Shown here: positions 23,646-59,129 of the stretch, in pieces
Position numbering within the stretch: the stretch's first letter is position 1
Layout: every line of letters starts with the position of its first letter
Assembly (NCBI RefSeq): GCF_037076525.1
Contig: NZ_AP029018.1
Span: 2,340,501-2,404,500 of the forward strand
Direction of reading: 5' to 3'
Length of the DNA: 64,000 nt
Origin: Selenomonas sp. TAMA-11512
GTDB lineage: Bacteria; Bacillota; Negativicutes; Selenomonadales; Selenomonadaceae
Notes under the pieces: generated by a model
The model's database searches: none
What the model saw: the letters and a program-made list of their open reading frames with translations, nothing else
Told to the model about the DNA's origin: nothing
Translations under genes and position numbers: made by a program

Positions 23646-24767
23646 ATGATAAATCTCCCCCTTTCCAAGCTGCGGGACGGTATGGTTACTGCGCAGAGCA
23701 TCTACAATCCGCGCGGCACGAGCTTTCTCACGCAGGGCATGGAGCTGAATCGCCATTACATCGATCGGCTGCAGAAAATCGGTATTGAGAATGTCGTCGT
23801 CACCTCGCTCAATCCCGCATTGAAGCTCAAGCCGCCGCCGAACATCGTACAGGAAAAGACGCGCATCACGGCCATCCACTGTGTGTCGGACATCTACGAT
23901 GCCGTTGAAAAGACCGGCACCTTTGATACAAAGATACTGCACAACATCTCGAAGACCATCCTCCACGATCTGATCGACAACAGAGCAAATCTCGTCCAGC
24001 TGACCGACATCCGGCTGCACGATTCCTATACATTCGCCCACTCCGTCAACGTCACCGTCCTGTCGGCGATGATGGGCATGCTCTGCCACTACTCACCGCA
24101 GGAGCTCACGGAACTGACGAACGGAGCGCTTCTCCACGACCTCGGCAAGACGATTATCCCGCAGGACGTTCTCATAAAGCCGGCTCATTTAAGCGCGGAT
24201 GAGGAGGCCATTGTCCGGCAGCACCCGAAGGTCGGGCGCGACCGCCTCAAAGCGATTCCGAATCTGCCGCCGACCGCAGGCTACATCGCCATGCAGCATC
24301 ATGAACACGTCGACGGCAGCGGCTACCCCAATCACATGACAGCCAAACAGATTCACCGCTTTGCGAAGATTGTCACCATTGCGGATGTCTACGATGCGCT
24401 CACGTCGATGCGCCCTTACAAGAAAGCGTACTCTCCGTCCGTCGCATATCGCATCATGAAAAGCGCTGCAGGCAAGCAGTTTGATGCGGATATCCTGAAA
24501 AAATTCTTCGACAACGTCGCCATCTATCCCGTCGGGACGATTCTGCGTACGAAGCTGGGCTTCGGCATTGTCAAACGGGTGGATTTCGGCCGCACACGGA
24601 CGCCGGTCATGTGCCTCTTTGCAAATGCGGACGGCAAAGTGCTCGATACGGCGATCGATATCGATCTGTACGAGCACGATGCGGACACGATCTTGGGCGT
24701 ACTCGACGGCAGTGAGCTCTATCACTTTGTCCACCAGATACACATGGATCCCGCAGTTCTCCTATAG
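23646..24767 (+). CDS. HD-GYP domain cyclic-di-GMP phosphodiesterase (copy 1)
   Basis: A 373-residue soluble protein. Residues 1-60 form a small N-terminal domain (LPLSKLRDGMVTAQSIYNPRGTSFL). The HD-GYP domain spans about 115-300: H131, HD at 164-165, H193, HH at 218-219 and GSGYP at 224-228, all metal and GYP residues intact. A beta-rich tail follows. It predicts c-di-GMP hydrolysis, plausibly favouring motility. AGGTGA precedes the ATG. The next gene is a close paralogue 34 bp downstream. Confidence 0.93.
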   Translation: MINLPLSKLRDGMVTAQSIYNPRGTSFLTQGMELNRHYIDRLQKIGIENVVVTSLNPALKLKPPPNIVQEKTRITAIHCVSDIYDAVEKTGTFDTKILHNISKTILHDLIDNRANLVQLTDIRLHDSYTFAHSVNVTVLSAMMGMLCHYSPQELTELTNGALLHDLGKTIIPQDVLIKPAHLSADEEAIVRQHPKVGRDRLKAIPNLPPTAGYIAMQHHEHVDGSGYPNHMTAKQIHRFAKIVTIADVYDALTSMRPYKKAYSPSVAYRIMKSAAGKQFDADILKKFFDNVAIYPVGTILRTKLGFGIVKRVDFGRTRTPVMCLFANADGKVLDTAIDIDLYEHDADTILGVLDGSELYHFVHQIHMDPAVLL

Positions 24768-24801: not shown

Positions 24802-25938
24802 ATGATACGTCTCTCTTCAAAACAACTAAGGGATGGCATGGTTACGGCGCAGAGCGTCTTCAATCAAAAAGGCGCCAGCTTCATTACTTCCGGGACACCG
24901 CTCACCGAGCGATACATCCATCGGCTGCAGAAGATGGGCATCTCCCACCTCGCGGTCACGTCCCTTTCCCCGGATGCGGCACTGCCGCCGCCGCCCGGCA
25001 TCGTCGATGAACGGGTACGCGAACAGTCGATCCGCACCATCGCTACCGCCTTTACACAGCTCGAATCTCAAAGCTCTTTCGATCTCGGCGCGCTGCAGAA
25101 CTCGGCAAACGACCTTCTCGACAGCGTGCTCCACATGCAGTCGAACCTCGTCCAGCTCTCCGACATCCGCATGCACGACTCCTATACGTTTGCCCACTCC
25201 GTCAATGTCGCTATCCTGTCCACGATGCTCGGCTCTCTCTGTCATCTTCACCGTGACGAATTGAAGCTTCTGACGCTCGGCGGCCTGCTGCACGATATCG
25301 GCAAGGTGGATATCCCCTACAAGCTGCTGAATAAGCCGGGCGCGCTGACCGATGAAGAGTTCGCGCTCATGCGCTCACACGCGGAAATAGGCAGAAAGCG
25401 CCTCCTTCAGCTTCCCGGCCCCAACACTGCGATCCTGGCCAATATCGCGGGACAGCATCACGAGTTCCTCGACGGGCGCGGCTATCCGAGAAGGCTCAAG
25501 GGCGATGCCATCCATCCCTATGCGCGCATCGTCGCCATCGCCGATGTCTATGACGCGCTCTCCTCCAAACGTTCCTACAAGAAGTCATACAAGCCGAGCG
25601 TCGTTCATCAGATCATGACGAAGAACTCCGTCGGCCACTTCTCTCCGGAGCTCCTGGAGCTCTTCTTTGACAATGTCGCCATCTACCCCGTCGGCACCGT
25701 CATGCTCACGAGTCTCGGCTACGGCATCGTCAAAAAAGTCTCGTTCGGCAAGACGCTCACGCCCGTCATCACGATCTTCGCCACGAAGGACGCAAAGCTC
25801 GTGCCGAAGCCCTTCAACGTCGACCTCTCCCAATGCCCGGCAGATAATACCATCCACCACGCCATTGACGATACGGAGCTCATCAACTTCGTTCGGGTAA
25901 TCGGCGTCGACCCCGCCATATTCCTTCGGGAAGAATAG
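24802..25938 (+). CDS. HD-GYP domain cyclic-di-GMP phosphodiesterase (copy 2)
   Basis: A 378-residue paralogue of the preceding gene with the same domain order: N-terminal region LSSKQLRDGMVTAQSVFNQKG, H131, HD at 164-165 (LLHDIGKVD), H193, HH at 219-220 and GRGYP at 225-229. The two proteins align without large gaps, including the tail VGT followed by LGYGIVK. GAGG lies 7 bases before the start. The pair arose by tandem duplication and is ended by a strong bidirectional terminator. Confidence 0.93.
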   Translation: MIRLSSKQLRDGMVTAQSVFNQKGASFITSGTPLTERYIHRLQKMGISHLAVTSLSPDAALPPPPGIVDERVREQSIRTIATAFTQLESQSSFDLGALQNSANDLLDSVLHMQSNLVQLSDIRMHDSYTFAHSVNVAILSTMLGSLCHLHRDELKLLTLGGLLHDIGKVDIPYKLLNKPGALTDEEFALMRSHAEIGRKRLLQLPGPNTAILANIAGQHHEFLDGRGYPRRLKGDAIHPYARIVAIADVYDALSSKRSYKKSYKPSVVHQIMTKNSVGHFSPELLELFFDNVAIYPVGTVMLTSLGYGIVKKVSFGKTLTPVITIFATKDAKLVPKPFNVDLSQCPADNTIHHAIDDTELINFVRVIGVDPAIFLREE

Positions 25939-26087: not shown

Positions 26088-27077
26088 TCATCGGTATACA
26101 TCCTCGTCGGCATCACGGCTGAGACTCGGCTTCTCCCTGGCGACCAGGTACAGGGGACGATGCTTGACCTCTTCAAATATGTTGCTGATGTACTCCCCGA
26201 TGATGCCGAGCGTGAAGAGCTGAAAGCCTCCGAAGAAGAGCACGCAGGCCGTAATCGTCGCCCAGCCGGGCACCGCCGTATCCTCGATGAACTTCGTGTA
26301 GAGGACGTGGAGAAAGAGCAGGAAGCTCAGCGCTCCGCAGATCACGCCCCCATATAGGCCGATGCGGAGCGGTATCGTCGAATAGGCGAGGATCCCGTCG
26401 AGCGCGAATCGTATCATCTTGCGCGGGGAGAATTTCGAGCGCCCCGCGTAGCGCTCGGGCGCCCGGAACTCCACCTGCGTCTGCCGATAGCCCATCGCGC
26501 CAATGAGCCCCCGGATGAAGCGCGCCCGCTCCCGATAGCGCCGAAACTCGACGACGACCTTTCGATCCATCAGGCGAAAATCCGCGCCGCCTTCCTGTAT
26601 AGGGACGCGGGAAATGCGGTTGAGCATCTTGTAGTAGAGCGCCGATGTCCACTTCTTCAGAAATCCCGCATCCTCCGTCGCAATGCGAATGGTCTGCACA
26701 ACCTCATAGCCTTCCTCCCAATGCGCTACAAGCGTCGGCAGGAGAGACGGCGGGTGCTGCATATCGCCGTCCATCATGATGACCGCGTCTCCCTCCGCGC
26801 GGTCCAGCCCGCATGTCAGCGCGAGCTGATGTCCGAAGTTCCTCGAAAGGAACACCGGCTGCACGCGGGCATCATGTGTCTCGAGACGGCGCAGTATCTC
26901 GCGGCTCCGATCCGTCGATCCGTCATCGACATAGATCAGCTCGAACGCATACGGCAAGCCGTCCATGACCTCGACGATCTTCTCGTAGAAGTGCTCGATG
27001 TTCGCCTCCTCGTTGTACACGGGGACGACGACGGATATGTATTTCTGCTGCTGTTGTGATATACGATCTTCTTCCAT
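26088..27077 (-). CDS. GtrB/DPM1-like polyprenyl-phosphate glycosyltransferase
   Basis: A 329-residue protein: a GT2 domain (YISVVVPVYNEEANIEHFY, LIYVDDGSTD, MMDGDMQHPP) and two C-terminal transmembrane helices (about 233-257 and 270-290), the layout of bactoprenol glucosyl transferases such as GtrB/YkcC. It loads a sugar onto undecaprenyl phosphate for later transfer outside the membrane. It begins 6 bases after the H-NOX chemoreceptor stop, so the two are probably co-transcribed, though no functional link is known. Confidence 0.9.
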   Translation of the reverse strand: MEEDRISQQQQKYISVVVPVYNEEANIEHFYEKIVEVMDGLPYAFELIYVDDGSTDRSREILRRLETHDARVQPVFLSRNFGHQLALTCGLDRAEGDAVIMMDGDMQHPPSLLPTLVAHWEEGYEVVQTIRIATEDAGFLKKWTSALYYKMLNRISRVPIQEGGADFRLMDRKVVVEFRRYRERARFIRGLIGAMGYRQTQVEFRAPERYAGRSKFSPRKMIRFALDGILAYSTIPLRIGLYGGVICGALSFLLFLHVLYTKFIEDTAVPGWATITACVLFFGGFQLFTLGIIGEYISNIFEEVKHRPLYLVAREKPSLSRDADEDVYR

Positions 27078-27083
27078 GCTTCC

Positions 27084-28880
27084 TTAAATCCTAAAGTTTC
27101 TGAGGTCATCCGAGAAGGATACCGTGATTTCCCGGAAGTGATGTATCTTGTCCATCATATCCTGCAGCTTCTCCGTGTGCTCGGCGACGGTATCGTTGAC
27201 CCTCTTTGCCGCGTCGGAGTTCTTCAGGGATAGCTCCGCCACGCCCTGCACCCGGGCAAATGCCTGATTCATTTCACGCATCTCGTGATTGAGCTGGCCG
27301 ATGATCTCGGATATGCTGTCCGAAACGCCGCGGATATCGGCAACATAGCGCTGATTGTCCTCGACGACGACGCGCAGCTGATTGCTCTCCTTGCCGAGCG
27401 CGTCGTACTCCGTGTCGATGGCGGCGACCACTTCATTGATGATCCCCGTGATGTGGCGAATGTCGTTCGTAATCGTGTCCGCCTGCTCCCTCGACTCCTC
27501 GGCGAGCTTGCCGATCTCCTGCGCGACGACGGCGAACCCTCTGCCCTGCTCGCCGGCGCGCGCCGCCTCGACCGAGGCGTTGAGCGCGAGGAGATTCGTC
27601 TGCGAGGCGATCTGCGTGACGACCTCCGCAATCGTGATGATCTTCTCCGTCTCCTTCTTCAAGGATACGGCGGAGTCACGCACTGCGGCAAAGTTCGCCA
27701 TCGTATTGCTCAGCTCTTCACTCGAGGATCGGACGCCGGCAAAGCCCGTATCGACATTCTGCACCGCACATCGCAGACTCTCATTATTTTCTTCCTGATT
27801 CGCGACAATCTCCTCAAGAGCATCGACATTCTTCCTTAGAAAATCCGCCACTTGCTCCGTACTCGTCGCGCTCTCTGTGGTCGAGGCGGCAACATGCTGC
27901 ACGACGCCGGCGATATGCGTTGATTCTTCGCGCATATCTTCCGCAATCGTATTGAAGCTGCCGCCATATGTGTTGAGCTCGTCGCTCGTACCGCGGAACC
28001 CCGTAAAATCAGCACGTACACCAGCCTTGAATGCCTGCAGGGCATCAGCGATTGTCTCGAAATCATCCCCTGAACGGAGCTCCAGCTCACCGAAGAACTT
28101 GCGCTCCTGAATGTCCCTGACCTCCTGCTCAATCGCCGAAAGCGGACGCAGGATAAGCGACGATACCGCGCCCGCCGCGCCGCCGCCCAGCAGAGCATAG
28201 AGGAAGAGATACGCGTCCCCCGTGACGGCGAACCCGATGCCCGCGAAGACGAGCATCATCGTACAGCACAGGATGCCGATCTTCGCCGGAATCGAGCCGG
28301 TCATCTTTCCCAGGAGCCAATTTAACGAATAGCTTTTCTGCAGCAGAATCTCGTCCGCGAAGCGCAGTTTGAGCCGGACGCGCCCTTGCACGTCCTCCAC
28401 CGGCTCAATCTCCACACGCTCCTTGAAGAAGTCGATCGACCCCTGCAGAAGTCCTCGAAAGTAGGGCCGCAGGTTGCGGCGGGACTCGTAGAGCAGCTCC
28501 GCCTCATGCGAGGAGATCGGCCTCAGTATCAGCGTCGGCGGATGCGCACCGGGAATCTTTTTCACAATCTCAACATGAACATTGTAGATGGACGAGAGAA
28601 ATGTATAGAGATTTTTCCCTTTGAAAAACGACGGATACGCCTTTGAAAACGTCTGTATATTGTCCTTGCCGATCTCGTGCCAGATCTTGTCAACGCTCTG
28701 TCCTGTCCGGTTTGCAAGAGCCGACATATAGGCGGCGATCTGCCCGTCCTCCACATCCTCAAGCGGCGTAAAGACGCGCGAGGCCTCCCAGCCCGCCGCG
28801 CCCATAGCCTCATCGACCGATCCTCCGTCCCACAGCTTGCGGCTCGTGGCTATCCATGTTGCGACAACAGTTCCCTTCAT
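27084..28880 (-). CDS. H-NOX (heme NO/O2-binding) methyl-accepting chemotaxis protein
   Basis: A 598-residue chemoreceptor. Residues 1-182 form an H-NOX domain: [10 protein letters not shown], proximal heme ligand H102 and the heme-propionate motif Y131-x-S133-x-R135. The distal residues W9, N74 and Y140 match the O2-binding triad of the Thermoanaerobacter protein, numbering included. Two adjacent transmembrane helices follow (about 201-221 and 223-246), with almost no periplasmic part, then the cytoplasmic signalling coiled coil with hairpin tip near 418-455 ([25 protein letters not shown]). Sensing is therefore cytoplasmic. Expected ligand is O2 and/or NO, with output to CheA. GGGGA precedes the ATG. 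Confidence 0.93.
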
Positions 28881-29015
28881 TCTCTCATCCCCTTACATGT
28901 CTGCATAATCAGGACGCGCTGATACATGCAGCGATTCCTTAAGAAATCACCTCTCCATGTCTTTCCCTGCGGGGAAAGGCGGCAGTCGCCCGACCATCGG
29001 ATGAGGGATATGCGA

Positions 29016-29963
29016 TTACAGTTTTATCTCCGACGCCTTTTGCAGCGCCTCCCGCGCCTCCTTCACCATCGTTTCGATGATGACGGCGGCCGGCTCGATC
29101 TTCTTGAGCGGCAGGAGGCTCTGTCCCGCCTGCATCATGCCGTTTTCCACATCGCCGTCAACGGCAGCGAGCTTGTTCGTCCCGCGCACCATCGCGCTGA
29201 GCTCCTCACGCGGCGTCTCGCCGGCGTACTCAAGAGCGACGAACTTCTCCGTGAACGGGTTTTTGACGCCGCGGACCGCGGCGCGCATCGTGAGCCCCGT
29301 CACAATCGTATCCGTGTCGATCGCCTCGATGAGCTTTTGCTTCATGTTCGGATGGACGCGGCACTCCTCCGCGACGAGGAAGCGCGTGCCGATCTGCACG
29401 CCGCCCGCGCCCATGAGAAGAGCCGCGGCAAGCCCCCGACCGTCGGCGATGCCGCCGGCGACAAGCACCGGGATGCTCGAAACCTCGGGCAGCACCTCCG
29501 TCATGAGCGCCATCGTCGTCAGACTGCCGATGTGCCCGCCGGCCTCCATGCCCTCGACGACCATCGCGTCCGCGCCCTTTTCCTCGACGCGCTTCGCGAG
29601 CTTGACGTTCGGCACGACAGGGATGATCTTGATCCCCGCTTCATGGAACGTGTCGATGTAAGGGACGGGGTTGCCCGCGCCCATCGTGACAAAGTCGGGC
29701 TTTTCTTCACAGATTGCCTCGATGACTTCATCCTTGTTCGGCGACATGAGCATGACATTCGCGCCGAACGGCTTGTCGGTGAGCTCCCTTGCCCTGCGGA
29801 TCTCACGCCGCACAAAGTCAACGTCGCGTCCGCCCGTCGAGATGATGCCCGCGCCGCCCGCGTTCGATACGGCGGCAGCGAGACCGGACTCCGAAATCCA
29901 CGCCATGCCGCCCTGCAGAATCGGATACCGTATGCCTAAAACCTCGGTGATGCTCTTTCCCAT
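29016..29963 (-). CDS. fabK: Enoyl-ACP reductase II (FabK) / nitronate monooxygenase family
   Basis: A 315-residue FMN-dependent TIM-barrel flavoprotein. Seen: RYPILQGGMAWISESGLAAAVSNAGGAGIIS at the N-terminus, VEGMEAGGHIG, PVLVAGGIADGRGLAAALLMGAGGVQIGTRFL. These are the FabK/NMO flavin and catalytic segments (the HIG histidine is present). FabK completes the elongation cycle of fatty acid synthesis in many Firmicutes. No other fab genes are beside it, so a nitronate monooxygenase role remains possible. Start 29963 has GGGAGG 8 bases upstream, better than the ATG at 29984. Confidence 0.85.
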   Translation of the reverse strand: MGKSITEVLGIRYPILQGGMAWISESGLAAAVSNAGGAGIISTGGRDVDFVRREIRRARELTDKPFGANVMLMSPNKDEVIEAICEEKPDFVTMGAGNPVPYIDTFHEAGIKIIPVVPNVKLAKRVEEKGADAMVVEGMEAGGHIGSLTTMALMTEVLPEVSSIPVLVAGGIADGRGLAAALLMGAGGVQIGTRFLVAEECRVHPNMKQKLIEAIDTDTIVTGLTMRAAVRGVKNPFTEKFVALEYAGETPREELSAMVRGTNKLAAVDGDVENGMMQAGQSLLPLKKIEPAAVIIETMVKEAREALQKASEIKL

Positions 29964-30066
29964 ACCGATTTCCTCCCTGTTCATGTCAGTACAAACTACC
30001 TATCAGTATATCATATCCTTGCAAGGACTTGAAATAAAATCTTTTTTGTGTTTCGACGCGCGTATG

Positions 30067-30111: not shown

Positions 30112-31953
30112 ATTTTATCGATTGCAGAGCAAAACAGGCGCACGGAGCGCATCCTGTCCTACGTCGCCGGCGCCTTCTTCTACTACTTCGCCCTCGTCTC
30201 CTTCTACATCAACATCGGCGAGGACATGACGCCGGACAATTACATCCTCTATATGCCGCCCGTCATCCTGTGTCTCGTACTCGTCCAGTGGGCAGGCGGG
30301 CAAAAGCTATTCTCCCGCGCGACCCTCGGGCATCTCTTCGTCGGCACCCTGTGGTGCGTGACCTTCCCCCTTCTCTATTCGTGGTCGTATGACAATCCGT
30401 GGTTCATCTCTCTCATCCGAAACGACCTTCTCATGGGGACGGGCTTCTACGCGCTCTCCGTCTCGTTCTGCGCCCTCCTCTATTCCGTTATTCGTCACCG
30501 TATCCTGGGCATCTGCCTTGCCGTACTTGCCGCGCTCATCGACCTCCTCTTCCTGTTCATCCCCGCGACGCAGATCGCCTACTACGTGACCTATTGGCAC
30601 TCCATCACCCCCGCCTCGCTCATGGCGCTCTACCTCACCGATCCCAAGGAGAGCATCGACTTCCTGGAGGCGATGGCGGGCTGGGGCGTCGTCACGCTTG
30701 TCGCCGCCGGACTGCTGCTCCTCACGTACCTCTTCTATCGCGCGCATCGGCTGCATCAGCGCGCCGTTCAGTCCGCTCCTCCGTCTTGGCGACAAAAGCT
30801 CACGCTTGCCGCGCTCGTCCTCTACCTGTCAAGCTACCTCCCCTTCACAATTTTTCCGCAGACCTCCATCATTCTGAACTGGAAGGAAGTCTCCGACTAC
30901 GTCGAAGAGACTCAGAAATACGCATCCACGCACGATGAACGGTATCAAATGCTCACCCTGGACGCAGCGGCCGACACGCTTGCGGTGAAAGCTCCCGGCA
31001 CGGTCATCGTCGTCATCGGCGAATCCGCCTCCAGAAACTATATGCACGCTTACACTCCCGATTTTCCCTATCCGGATACTCCGTGGATGGAAGCGCAGGA
31101 ACAAAGTCCTTCCTTTACCGTCTATCGCAATGCCTATTCATCGTGGACGCAGACCGTCCCTGTTCTTGAAAAGGCATTGACCGAAGCGAGCCAGTACAAC
31201 GACAAGGAATTTTCCTCTTCGTCTTCGATCCTCGATGTTGCCAAGAAGGCGGGCTACAAGACGTATTGGTTCAGCAATCAGGGACGTTACGGCGAGTACG
31301 ACAGCGCCATCACCCTCGTCGCCAAGACAGCCGATGTCGCCGAGTGGGCCGACGACTCGTATCTCTTCACGGAGAAATACGACGAACGCCTTCTCGACTT
31401 CCTCGATACGCTTGACCCGACGGAAAACAACTTCGTCGTCCTCCACATTATGGGCAGCCACATCTACTATAACAATCGCTACCCAAGCGAGTTCAACCGC
31501 TGGCAGAACCCGGACGGAGGCGCCGCAACCAATGCGGAGTCGTATGCCAACAGCATCCTTTACACCGACGACCTCCTCCGCCGCATTTACGAATACGGCA
31601 GAGATCGCTTACATCTGCAGACGATGCTTTACTTCTCCGACCACGGCGAGGATTTAAAGATCTCCCACAACCCGGATGTCTTCGCCTGGACGATGGTGCG
31701 CATCCCCTTCTTTATCTACACCTCACCCGCTTATGATCGGGAGTTCCCCGATCGCGCGCGCGTCATCCACGCGCATCGGGATACCTACTTCACAAACGAC
31801 ATGCTCTACGACACGATTTCGGGACTTCTGAACGCGCCGTCAAACCATTACGACGCCGCACAGGATCTCACCTCTCCGACCTATCGCTTCACGCGCGATA
31901 CCCTCACGACCATGTTCGGCCAAGTGCAGATCAAGGATGATCCGTCGCTGTAA
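30112..31953 (+). CDS. EptA-like lipid phosphoethanolamine transferase (sulfatase fold), probable ATT start
   Basis: About 613 residues if it starts at ATT 30112, or 575 from the first ATG at 30226. The N-terminal part has several transmembrane helices; the first (AGAFFYYFALVSFYI) is lost with the ATG start. The catalytic domain has VVIGESASRNYMHAY with the nucleophile region, LHIMGSHIYYNNRY and YFSDHGEDL, metal-ligand segments of the EptA/CptA alkaline-phosphatase superfamily. It would move phosphoethanolamine from a phospholipid to lipid A or another envelope glycan. The ATT is favoured by GGGAGG 8 bases upstream and the coding-like residues in frame. The substrate is inferred. Confidence 0.82.
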   Translation: MLSIAEQNRRTERILSYVAGAFFYYFALVSFYINIGEDMTPDNYILYMPPVILCLVLVQWAGGQKLFSRATLGHLFVGTLWCVTFPLLYSWSYDNPWFISLIRNDLLMGTGFYALSVSFCALLYSVIRHRILGICLAVLAALIDLLFLFIPATQIAYYVTYWHSITPASLMALYLTDPKESIDFLEAMAGWGVVTLVAAGLLLLTYLFYRAHRLHQRAVQSAPPSWRQKLTLAALVLYLSSYLPFTIFPQTSIILNWKEVSDYVEETQKYASTHDERYQMLTLDAAADTLAVKAPGTVIVVIGESASRNYMHAYTPDFPYPDTPWMEAQEQSPSFTVYRNAYSSWTQTVPVLEKALTEASQYNDKEFSSSSSILDVAKKAGYKTYWFSNQGRYGEYDSAITLVAKTADVAEWADDSYLFTEKYDERLLDFLDTLDPTENNFVVLHIMGSHIYYNNRYPSEFNRWQNPDGGAATNAESYANSILYTDDLLRRIYEYGRDRLHLQTMLYFSDHGEDLKISHNPDVFAWTMVRIPFFIYTSPAYDREFPDRARVIHAHRDTYFTNDMLYDTISGLLNAPSNHYDAAQDLTSPTYRFTRDTLTTMFGQVQIKDDPSL

Positions 31954-31990: not shown

Positions 31991-32752
31991 ATGCTCGTAT
32001 TCCTTTCCATGCTTGCCCTCGGTGCCGTCGTCGGCTTCGTCGGCGCCGGCGGCGCAGGCGTCGTCATCGCTCTGCTCCATGTAGGATTCGGCGTCCCCAT
32101 CCACACGGCCCTCGCCGTCGCCCTCGCTTCCATGACGTTTACCGTACTCTCGGGTGCCGTCAGCCACTACCGCGAGGGAGAGGTCATCGTGCGCATCGGC
32201 GCCGTCATGGGAGCCTCCGGTTCCGTTGGAGCCTATCTCGGCGCCGCCGTCTCCAATCTGATGGATCCGGCGTTCCTGACGAAGATGACGGGCATCATGC
32301 TCCTCGCCTCCGCCTCCATCCTCTACACGAAGCTGTACCACGATCAGCTTCTCAGTCGGCTCTTCCGCATTCCGGAAGAGCCCATCCGAGGGAAGAAGCT
32401 CTATATCTTCGGCATTCTCACCGGCCTTGTGAACGGATTTCTGTCCGGCGCATTCGGCATCGGAGCCGCCGCCTTCATTCAGCTCACCCTCCTCATCGTA
32501 TTCGGCGTGCCCCTTCTGCAGTCCCTCGGCACCTCCATGATGATCATCCTGCCGATCTCCGCCTCGGGCGGCCTCAGCTACCTATTCAACGATCGGCTCG
32601 ATCTCACGATCTTTGTGGAAACGCTCCTCGGGCTCATGCTCGGCGCCTACATCGGCTCGAAAGGCACGCACCTCGCCCCCCGTCCCGTTCTGAAAGCCTG
32701 CATCGTCGCTACCCCCACGATCGGCAGCCTCACGCTTCTGCTGTTCAGATAA
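31991..32752 (+). CDS. TauE/SafE family sulfite/organosulfur-type permease
   Basis: A 253-residue membrane protein with about seven or eight hydrophobic helices. It has the two TauE/SafE half-repeats: FLSMLALGAVVGFVGAGGAGVVI near the start and GILTGLVNGFLSGAFGIGAAAF in the second half. Members export or import small anions (sulfite, sulfoacetate and others), but the substrate cannot be read. AAAGAGG precedes the ATG. It follows the EptA-like gene by 37 bp and is probably co-transcribed. Confidence 0.88.
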   Translation: MLVFLSMLALGAVVGFVGAGGAGVVIALLHVGFGVPIHTALAVALASMTFTVLSGAVSHYREGEVIVRIGAVMGASGSVGAYLGAAVSNLMDPAFLTKMTGIMLLASASILYTKLYHDQLLSRLFRIPEEPIRGKKLYIFGILTGLVNGFLSGAFGIGAAAFIQLTLLIVFGVPLLQSLGTSMMIILPISASGGLSYLFNDRLDLTIFVETLLGLMLGAYIGSKGTHLAPRPVLKACIVATPTIGSLTLLLFR

Positions 32753-56978: not shown

Positions 56979-59129
56979 ATGTCGACCAATTCGAACCTGC
57001 CCGAGCCGAGCAACAAGCGTGGGTTGGGCTTTCAGATCAATGCGGTTGTCTTCATTGGCGTCACCGTCATGATCACAATTCTCATGGGATTTGTGGGTTA
57101 CCAGTCCTATGAGACGATGATTGAAAGCGGTATCCGCGAGAAGTACAACGAAGCGGGCGCGCAGACCGCGCCGATCGAGACGCGCTTCGCCACCATCTAC
57201 CAGTCGGGCGAAAGCCTCTCCACGCGCGTCCATCAGCTCCTTGAGACGCCGATGGAATCGCGCAGCCGTGAGGATCTCGCCGAGGCGCTCCGCGCCGTCG
57301 TTCGCTCCAATGAAGACATCGTGGGCGCCGGTATCTGCTTCGAGCCGAACGCGTTTGACGGCAGGGATGCCGACTTTGTGAACACGCCCATGTCGGACGC
57401 TACGGGGCGCGCAATCCCCTATGCCAGCCAGGAAGAAAACGGGAATATCCTCATCGCTCCGCTGACGGGCTACGAAACGGACGAGTGGTACCAAGGGCCG
57501 CGCGCCTCGCAGAAGCTCGTCCTGACCGATCCCTATGAATACGAGATCGCCCCGGGCAAGAAGATCAACATGCTGACCATTGCCTTCCCTCTCATTGAAA
57601 ACGGACAATTCATCGGCGCGGTGACCGTTGACTTCGCCATGAGCCACTTCCAGGATGACATGATTGCAATCAGCTCGCCGGATAACTTCTTCGTCATCTT
57701 CACGACGAAGGGTACAGTTCTCGCCCACGGGCTGAAAGACGATTACCTTCTTCAAAATACCTATGAGCTTCTGGGCACCAGCCCGTCCGAGGGAGCAAAG
57801 TTCCTCGGCAAGGAGCTCTACTCGATGGAAAGAGTATCCCCCACATCGGGACAGACCTCGACCTACGTCTTCCGTCCCATCGAGCTGACGGGCATGGAGC
57901 AGCCTTGGGGCTCACTCGTCGTTACATCCAATACCGTATTCACTGAGGACGCCAAGCACCTCGTATTGGTCTCGGTCATCATTGCCGTCATCTGCGGCAT
58001 CGCGCTTGTACTCGCGCTCGCCTTCTTCGTGCGTCAGCGCTTCGCCGTCCCCATGCAGGAAATCGCGGACATGATCGAGCGCTTCTCCAAGCTTGACATC
58101 CGCCGCGAGAAAAACGCGCACCTCTACAAGTACGCGCCGCGCGGCGATGAGATCGGCAGTATCTTCCGCGCGTGCAGCCACATGGCAGTCTCGCTGCGTG
58201 AGATCATCGGCAAGATCAACGAAAGCTCCCAGTCCGTCGCGGCGACAAGCGAAGAGCTGACAGCGACGGCGCAGAGTACGGCGGACAGCGCGCGCAGCGT
58301 GTCCTCCGCCATCCACAACATCGCCGACGGTGCGTCGGGTCAGGCGCGCGATACGAATGAGGCCGTCACTCACCTCGACGAGGCGATGAACCTCTTCGAG
58401 GGCAATCAGATCATCCTGGACAAGATCAACAAGGGCTCCGCCTCCATCCGCGACCGCAAGGATGAAGGTCTGGCTTCCCTGCGCGACGCCATGCAGAAGT
58501 CCGAGGAGACAACGCGCGCCACAGAGGAAGTCGCACGCGTCGTCGATGAGACGAACAAGAGCGCCGAGCAGATCGAAGACGCGAGCCAGATGATCCAGTC
58601 CATCTCCGAGCAGACAAACCTCCTCGCGCTCAATGCCGCGATCGAGGCGGCGCGCGCCGGCGAAGCCGGGCGCGGCTTCAGCGTCGTTGCCGAGGAGATC
58701 CGCAAGCTCGCCGAGCAGAGCCGCAGCTTCACCGACGAGATCAACAGCATCATCGTCAGTCTGAAGGGCAAGGCGCAGGAAGCCGTCGATACGATGGAAA
58801 CGTCCAAGACGCTCGTCGAGGAGACGCGAAACAGCCTCGACATAACGCAGGAGAAATTCCGGCTCATCGATGAGGCCGTCGGGGAAACCGACACCGTCGT
58901 GCAGGAAATGAACCATGCGACGAGGGAACTCATGGACAAGACCAAATCCATCACGAAGATCGTCAGCGGTCTTTCCGCCGTCGCGAAGGAAAATGCCTCT
59001 GCCAGCGAAGCGGGCAACAGCGCTGTAGAGTCGCAGACCTACTCCCTGCAAAATCTCGCCGAGGCGAGCGAAGGTCTTGCCGATGTCGCGACGAGCTTGC
59101 AGGGAGAGATCGGAAAATTCCAGGTCTGA
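56979..59129 (+). CDS. Methyl-accepting chemotaxis protein with dCache sensor
   Basis: A 716-residue chemoreceptor. First transmembrane helix at about 15-38 ([24 protein letters not shown]); periplasmic dCache_1 domain to about 325 ([64 protein letters not shown]); second helix near 328-350 ([25 protein letters not shown]); HAMP-like linker; signalling domain with tip [43 protein letters not shown]. It senses small molecules such as amino acids or carboxylates, ligand unknown. AAAGGA precedes the ATG. Confidence 0.95.

Follow-up and report, generated by a model that had tools for sequence, protein, structure and literature searches.

A predicted membrane-anchored chemotaxis receptor with an O2-binding-type H-NOX domain in Selenomonas sp. 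TAMA-11512

Introduction

A gene in the genome of Selenomonas sp. TAMA-11512, a presumed strict anaerobe, appears to join a heme-binding H-NOX domain to the signalling domain of a chemotaxis receptor, which raises the questions of which gas such a receptor might report to the cell and whether its presence in an anaerobe is out of the ordinary. We have analysed the gene within a stretch of 64 000 nt (contig NZ_AP029018.1, positions 2 340 501 to 2 404 500), here called the window. Receptors of this kind already have a place in the literature. Two reviews describe membrane-bound H-NOX proteins with a distal tyrosine, fused to MCPs, in obligate anaerobes and assign these fusions to O2 sensing (PMC8738867, PMC8196705), and one of the two calls a role in O2 chemotaxis likely (PMC8738867). 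The H-NOX domain of Thermoanaerobacter tengcongensis/Caldanaerobacter subterraneus (Tt) is itself part of an MCP fusion, and a chemotaxis role of such fusions is presumed, with demonstration by assays under life-relevant conditions still lacking (PMC9814294).

The receptor gene and its domains

From sequence and structural models the gene is predicted to encode a membrane-anchored chemotaxis receptor with an H-NOX domain of the O2-binding type (distal Tyr), the sensing domain being cytoplasmic. The two recognizable domains of the receptor (Table 1) match Pfam families HNOB (PF07700; residues 2-159, E-value 4.2e-42, 144.2 bits against a cut-off of 25.5) and MCPsignal (PF00015; E-value 3.7e-31). 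When the receptor was compared with the PDB chains using phmmer, the best matches were 1xbn (E-value 3.5e-47) and 1u4h (E-value 3.6e-47), both of them chains of the O2-binding Tt H-NOX, and the closest MCP chain was 2ch7 (E-value 6e-17).

Table 1. Features of the receptor locus, in window coordinates, and of one further gene pair of the same genome (coordinates with locus prefix)
Feature	Position	Strand	Basis or remark
H-NOX-MCP chemoreceptor, 598 aa	27084-28880	-	Open ORF with ATG start; HNOB and MCPsignal above Pfam cut-offs
RBS-like AAGGGG	28889-28894		8 nt upstream of receptor ATG
H-NOX domain, residues 1-184	28329-28880	-	phmmer alignment, superposition, pocket kept in 17/17 order copies
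Predicted membrane hairpin, residues 197-249	28134-28292	-	AlphaFold helices and hydropathy peaks in relatives
Putative HAMP-like connector, residues 245-293	28002-28148	-	Helix-strand-helix in low-confidence model
MCP signalling domain with hairpin tip, residues 389-547	27240-27716	-	PF00015
GT-A (GtrB/ArnC/PgfS-like) glycosyltransferase	26088-27077	-	PF00535, E-value 2.6e-33
Tandem HD-GYP-type (HD_5) proteins	23646-24767, 24802-25938	+	Pfam; convergent with receptor and glycosyltransferase genes
FabK-like enoyl-ACP reductase/nitronate monooxygenase family protein	29016-29984	-	Upstream of receptor; FabK below NCBIfam cut-off
Sulfatase-family protein, hydrophobic N-terminal part	30226-31953	+	Pfam (PF00884)
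TauE-family protein	31991-32752		Pfam; beside sulfatase-family gene
NirJ2/NirJ1-type radical SAM pair, neighbouring genes	L197:5025-7081	-	NCBIfam; window's genome

The phmmer alignments to 1xbn and 1u4h run to residue 162 before the first gap, so that the residue numbers given in a preliminary description of this DNA, which had claimed a number-for-number match to the heme- and O2-binding residues of Tt H-NOX, are indeed Tt numbers. A MAFFT alignment agrees, with 77 of 174 positions identical and with W9, N74, F78, H102, P115, Y131, S133, R135, Y140 and L144 in columns common to the two proteins. The proximal His102 and the Y131-x-S133-x-R135 motif are thus in register with Tt, and the distal Tyr140 is present and aligned together with W9 and N74; neither H102 nor Y140 is displaced in the phmmer or MAFFT alignments or in the superposition described below (Z 27). 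Identity over the domain is about 41 %, in a comparison that covers the H-NOX domain rather than the full-length Tt receptor, and the likeness to the four structures of this protein (1u4h, 1u55, 1u56 and 1xbn) extends to the fold, the numbering through residue 162, the proximal histidine, the YxSxR motif and the W9/N74/Y140 pocket. Differences include Val5 and Ile98 in the window's receptor against Ile5 and Met98 in the Tt domain, which is part of the receptor Tar4.

An AlphaFold model of residues 1-250, which rests on 62 sequences, has a mean pLDDT of 90.7. Superposed on the crystal chain 1u4h, which has O2 bound, it reaches a Z score of 27.0, and on 1u56 a Z score of 26.9 (rmsd 1.2 over 179 residues), which points to an H-NOX fold. 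The scores are 20.0-21.1 for Nostoc chains and 14.7-19.7 for Shewanella chains, and beyond H-NOX and guanylate cyclase chains the fold search reaches a Z score of about 7, a level that the tool rates as common. The E-values, together with the retention of the pocket in all 17 copies of the order (see below), rule out a chance resemblance. We predict from these alignments that the domain would bind heme and that its pocket would be of the O2 type.

The same model places two helices at residues 197-220 and 224-249, joined by a loop of three residues (221-223), and a loop this short leaves the receptor with no periplasmic domain, as the preliminary description had proposed when it spoke of two adjacent membrane helices. 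Of the 80 named relatives introduced below, 73 show two peaks between residues 197 and 250 in a hydropathy scan; two of the seven copies without two peaks at the threshold are short reads (L103 and L117), and four named copies have an additional peak at residues 472-488. In the window's own copy the first helix alone exceeds the threshold, and its second membrane helix is accordingly taken from the model and the relatives. The Pfam HAMP family has no match in the receptor at an E-value of 0.001. A full-length model of low confidence (mean pLDDT 66), used for this observation alone, has a helix-strand-helix arrangement after the second membrane helix, which suggests that the connector behind the hairpin may be HAMP-like.

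Distribution and conservation

An HNOB domain is found in 17 of the 189 genomes of the order, the window's own included, and in seven of its 30 genera. Since a CheA domain is present in 171 of the 189, most chemotactic relatives manage without the receptor. The 17 copies are all 595-598 aa long when read from a conserved start of the MKGT type, which is IKGT in two of them, and W9, N74, F78, H102, P115, Y131, S133, R135 and Y140 are invariant among them.

A scan of named genomes with two conserved peptides confirmed 180 relatives, of which the best 80 were kept, so the conservation counts from this set favour close relatives. These 80 come from Selenomonas, Centipeda, Pectinatus, Propionispira, Megamonas-like MAGs, Sporomusa, Pelosinus, Clostridium and others, and 78 of them are 577-604 aa long, the exceptions being a copy at a contig end (L103) and one with a stop at residue 130 (L117). 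Across the 81 rows formed by the window and the 80 named loci, W9, N74, F78, H102 and P115 are kept throughout, and Y131, S133, R135 and Y140 in 80, L117 again being the exception. We note that L117 is from Clostridium psychrophilum and that, with its H-NOX-MCP frame ending before the tyrosine of the pocket, this copy may be decaying or mis-sequenced. The named H-NOX-MCPs of Clostridium and the Negativicutes share the layout of the window's receptor and, apart from L117, its Tyr pocket. The H-NOX of Clostridium botulinum, which is fused to an MCP, is the characterized Clostridium case, and it is likened to the receptor here by its published description rather than by alignment.

A family-profile search of a phylum-wide sample gave matches in 40 of 398 genomes, comprising 28 intact fusions, two fusions with broken frames, nine stand-alone domains and one sub-threshold match. 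W9, N74 and Tyr140 occur together in all 28 intact fusions, and the MCP hairpin tip, as judged by eye, is also present in each, in some with variant letters. Tyr140 occurs in none of the eight readable stand-alone proteins (172-183 aa), in two of which (L187 and L192) parts of the YxSxR motif are missing and position 140 may be misaligned. Outside these counts lie the sub-threshold match, for which there is no alignment (L194), the ninth stand-alone domain (L178), with a stop codon at residue 9, and the broken-frame fusions L191, which has Tyr140, and L193, which is readable only to residue 94.

As judged from these sequences, a single fixed receptor layout of about 600 residues is common to many Clostridia and Negativicutes, and the window adds one lineage to a known class of O2 sensors whose design extends across many anaerobic Bacillota. 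The preliminary description had regarded an O2-type H-NOX-MCP in an anaerobe as surprising; given the wide occurrence of the class and its presence in reviews it is not, and the receptor is a further example of a class known from other anaerobes.

The patchy distribution within the order could in principle reflect horizontal gain or loss. In a quick tree of 87 rows (the window, 78 of the 80 named relatives, L103 and L117 being omitted as short, and eight further copies), the window copy stands next to two copies from a single other genus, the nearest at 59 % identity, and is at most 59 % identical to every other row. It groups with same-family copies inside the Negativicutes, a group in which one row is labelled only Bacillota. 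Horizontal gain was rejected on this placement, and the patchy presence of the receptor is probably due to loss.

Chemotaxis, respiratory and heme genes of the genome

The genome is a single contig of 2.59 Mb with 13 matches to the MCP signalling domain, the receptor included. A single run of genes encodes FlhB, FlhA, an FlhF-like GTPase, a YcgR-like PilZ protein, CheA, CheW, CheC, CheD and a sigma-70 factor which its position marks as FliA-like. The CheA protein (720 aa) has Hpt, P2, dimerization, ATPase and CheW domains, and the CheW gene adjoins it; CheC and CheD are marks of a Bacillus-type chemotaxis set. We note that the window contains a second gene with an MCP signalling domain (58485-58976, + strand), in an open frame of 720 aa.

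Selenomonas infelix, Centipeda periodontii and Pectinatus brassicae, members of the same family, are strict anaerobes. That the host is one too, as the preliminary description stated, is still a presumption, and the cytochrome bd genes cydA (Pfam) and cydB (NCBIfam) in its genome speak against taking it as settled. The next two ORFs, 554 and 567 aa long, are placed like cydD and cydC, an assignment by position alone. A link of the receptor with cytochrome bd or with CheA was considered and rejected: every one of the order's 17 H-NOX genomes has cydA and the CheA dimerization domain, but among the 172 genomes without the receptor cydA occurs in 139 and CheA in 154, so neither is informative and no specific connection to cytochrome bd emerges.

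A profile search for ferrochelatase of the PF00762 type found none in the genome, and the AhbD model has a match under its cut-off. The best NCBIfam names of the radical SAM pair listed in Table 1 are NirJ2, above the cut-off, and NirJ1 (624.7 bits against 650), the latter match coming from a stretch that begins at profile position 38. The occurrence of this pair without a PF00762 ferrochelatase prompts one to ask where the heme would come from.

Ligand and response

The reading that we favour, with a probability of roughly three in four, is that the receptor is a homologue of the Caldanaerobacter/Clostridium type of H-NOX-MCP, with the same layout, and steers the cell by trace O2. His102 and the Y131-x-S133-x-R135 motif would hold a b-type heme that takes up O2 from the cytoplasm, and Tyr140, positioned by Trp9 and Asn74, would hydrogen-bond the bound O2. 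Ligation would shift the H-NOX subdomains, and the shift would be relayed through the membrane hairpin, acting as an anchor and not as an outside sensor, and the HAMP-like connector to the long MCP coiled coil, which would alter CheA activity and so the direction of swimming. O2 binding is likely, judged by the pocket residues; beyond it we infer that the domain is loaded with heme, that O2 is its physiological ligand and that the signal is relayed in this way. O2 input to an MCP is also the role of HemAT, heme-PAS receptors and DcrH (PMC13401364). The sensor domains of these proteins are globin, PAS and hemerythrin-like domains and differ from H-NOX.

The pocket residues do not by themselves prove O2 sensing, since the H-NOX domains of Caldanaerobacter and C. 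botulinum, with the same residues nearest the bound ligand, span an approximately 1000-fold range of O2 affinity, with reported KD values of 44 nM and 53 µM respectively (PMC7356049). The receptor might accordingly report mainly NO, released by denitrifying organisms nearby or by a host, with the Tyr pocket merely tuning affinity. The micromolar KD of the C. botulinum domain and the usual order of heme affinities, NO > CO > O2 (PMC7356049), would suit this, as would the binding of NO and CO by the Caldanaerobacter domain (PMC9814294). We nevertheless regard a mainly NO-reporting receptor as unlikely, because the W9-N74-Y140 set, invariant in the intact fusions and absent from the eight readable stand-alone proteins, fits selection for O2 binding, and because the literature cited in the Introduction assigns distal-Tyr fusions to O2 sensing. 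The stand-alone H-NOX proteins of facultative anaerobes and cyanobacteria, such as those of Shewanella and Nostoc, which are described as NO sensors, have the fold in common with the window's receptor, which unlike them has the MCP fusion and the distal Tyr. Among the neighbouring genes scanned with Pfam no histidine kinase gene lies beside the receptor; HD-GYP genes do lie nearby.

If O2 is the ligand, it could still act as an attractant or define a set point, so that a cell equipped with cytochrome bd would make for the outer margin of the anoxic zone. This is a variant of the favoured reading, so that confidence in the two overlaps, and taken separately it too seems improbable. It would fit the cydA and cydB genes, the ORFs placed like cydD and cydC, and the presence of cydA in every H-NOX genome of the order, but the frequency of cydA in the other genomes of the order weakens the argument, and the anaerobic species tested in classical work are reported to have moved away from O2 (PMC13401364). 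The sign of the response, repellent or attractant, is not readable from the sequence. Of the O2-repellent (or NO) taxis predicted in the preliminary description, an O2-type H-NOX on a chemoreceptor, encoded alongside genes for chemotaxis and flagella, stands; the choice of O2 over NO is not established by these data, nor can repulsion be derived from them. For the favoured reading, steering by trace O2, a mesophilic, motile member of the class could make a test of O2 chemotaxis practical.

Gene neighbourhood

The receptor gene is followed after 6 bp (27078-27083), the interval reported in the preliminary description, by the ATG of the glycosyltransferase gene, there called GtrB-like and placed by PF00535 in the GT-A family; its score against NCBIfam PgfS (262 bits) is below the cut-off of 500. 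The RBS-like AAGGAA of the glycosyltransferase overlaps the receptor stop codon, and the two genes are probably co-transcribed. Such spacing might be taken to indicate a functional operon tying O2 sensing to envelope glycosylation, a possibility that we consider very remote on comparison with other genomes. None of 16 relatives has the glycosyltransferase gene next to that of the receptor (the 189-genome order set holds no other genome of the window's genus). In one locus (L035) a 40 %-identical glycosyltransferase lies about 5.6 kb downstream of the receptor, in genome G142 a 75 %-identical one is at C1:1728447 and the receptor at C1:1827160, about 98 kb apart, and in four genomes (G179, G178, G048 and G028) the best match and the receptor are on different contigs. 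Relatives of the glycosyltransferase (E-value ≤1e-40) are in any case present in 51 of 60 genomes, counting that of the window. Functional coupling as a conserved trait was thus rejected for want of adjacency in the 16 relatives, and the pairing, which the preliminary description had singled out, looks local and incidental.

A wider comparison of neighbouring genes covered 90 loci, after seven loci whose genomes recur among the named loci had been dropped, and the largest clusters (up to 25, each with at least three loci) were inspected together with the 17 copies of the order. No conserved gene neighbour of the receptor emerged from these clusters: most of them are shared by related species and go no further, and a handful of small mixed ones (ABC transporters at four loci, for instance) look generic. 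The widest cluster is of HD-domain genes, at nine of the 90 loci, where genes that BLAST clusters with the window's two HD-GYP-type genes are no more than about 3 kb from that of the receptor; the nine include sister species (two Megamonas-like MAGs and two Pelosinus), and among them the Pfam assignment covers the window's tandem pair only. The genome has six HD_5 matches. It is conceivable, though we think it quite improbable, that in anaerobes with cytochrome bd the receptor sets a preferred nanomolar level of O2, as in edge-seeking, and that in some lineages it is tied to c-di-GMP through neighbours of the HD-GYP type.

The sulfatase-family protein of Table 1 is possibly a transferase of the phosphoethanolamine or lipoteichoic-acid type, which is a guess. 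In the Sporomusaceae and related Negativicutes a short protein, guessed from its sequence to be a putative nitrite/sulfite reductase half-domain, flanks the receptor at 10 loci (L058, L069, L071, L074, L086, L088, L097, L101, L104 and L119). A regulator-like protein, likewise named by a guess from sequence, flanks it at 13 loci, namely these 10 and L056, L059 and L075.
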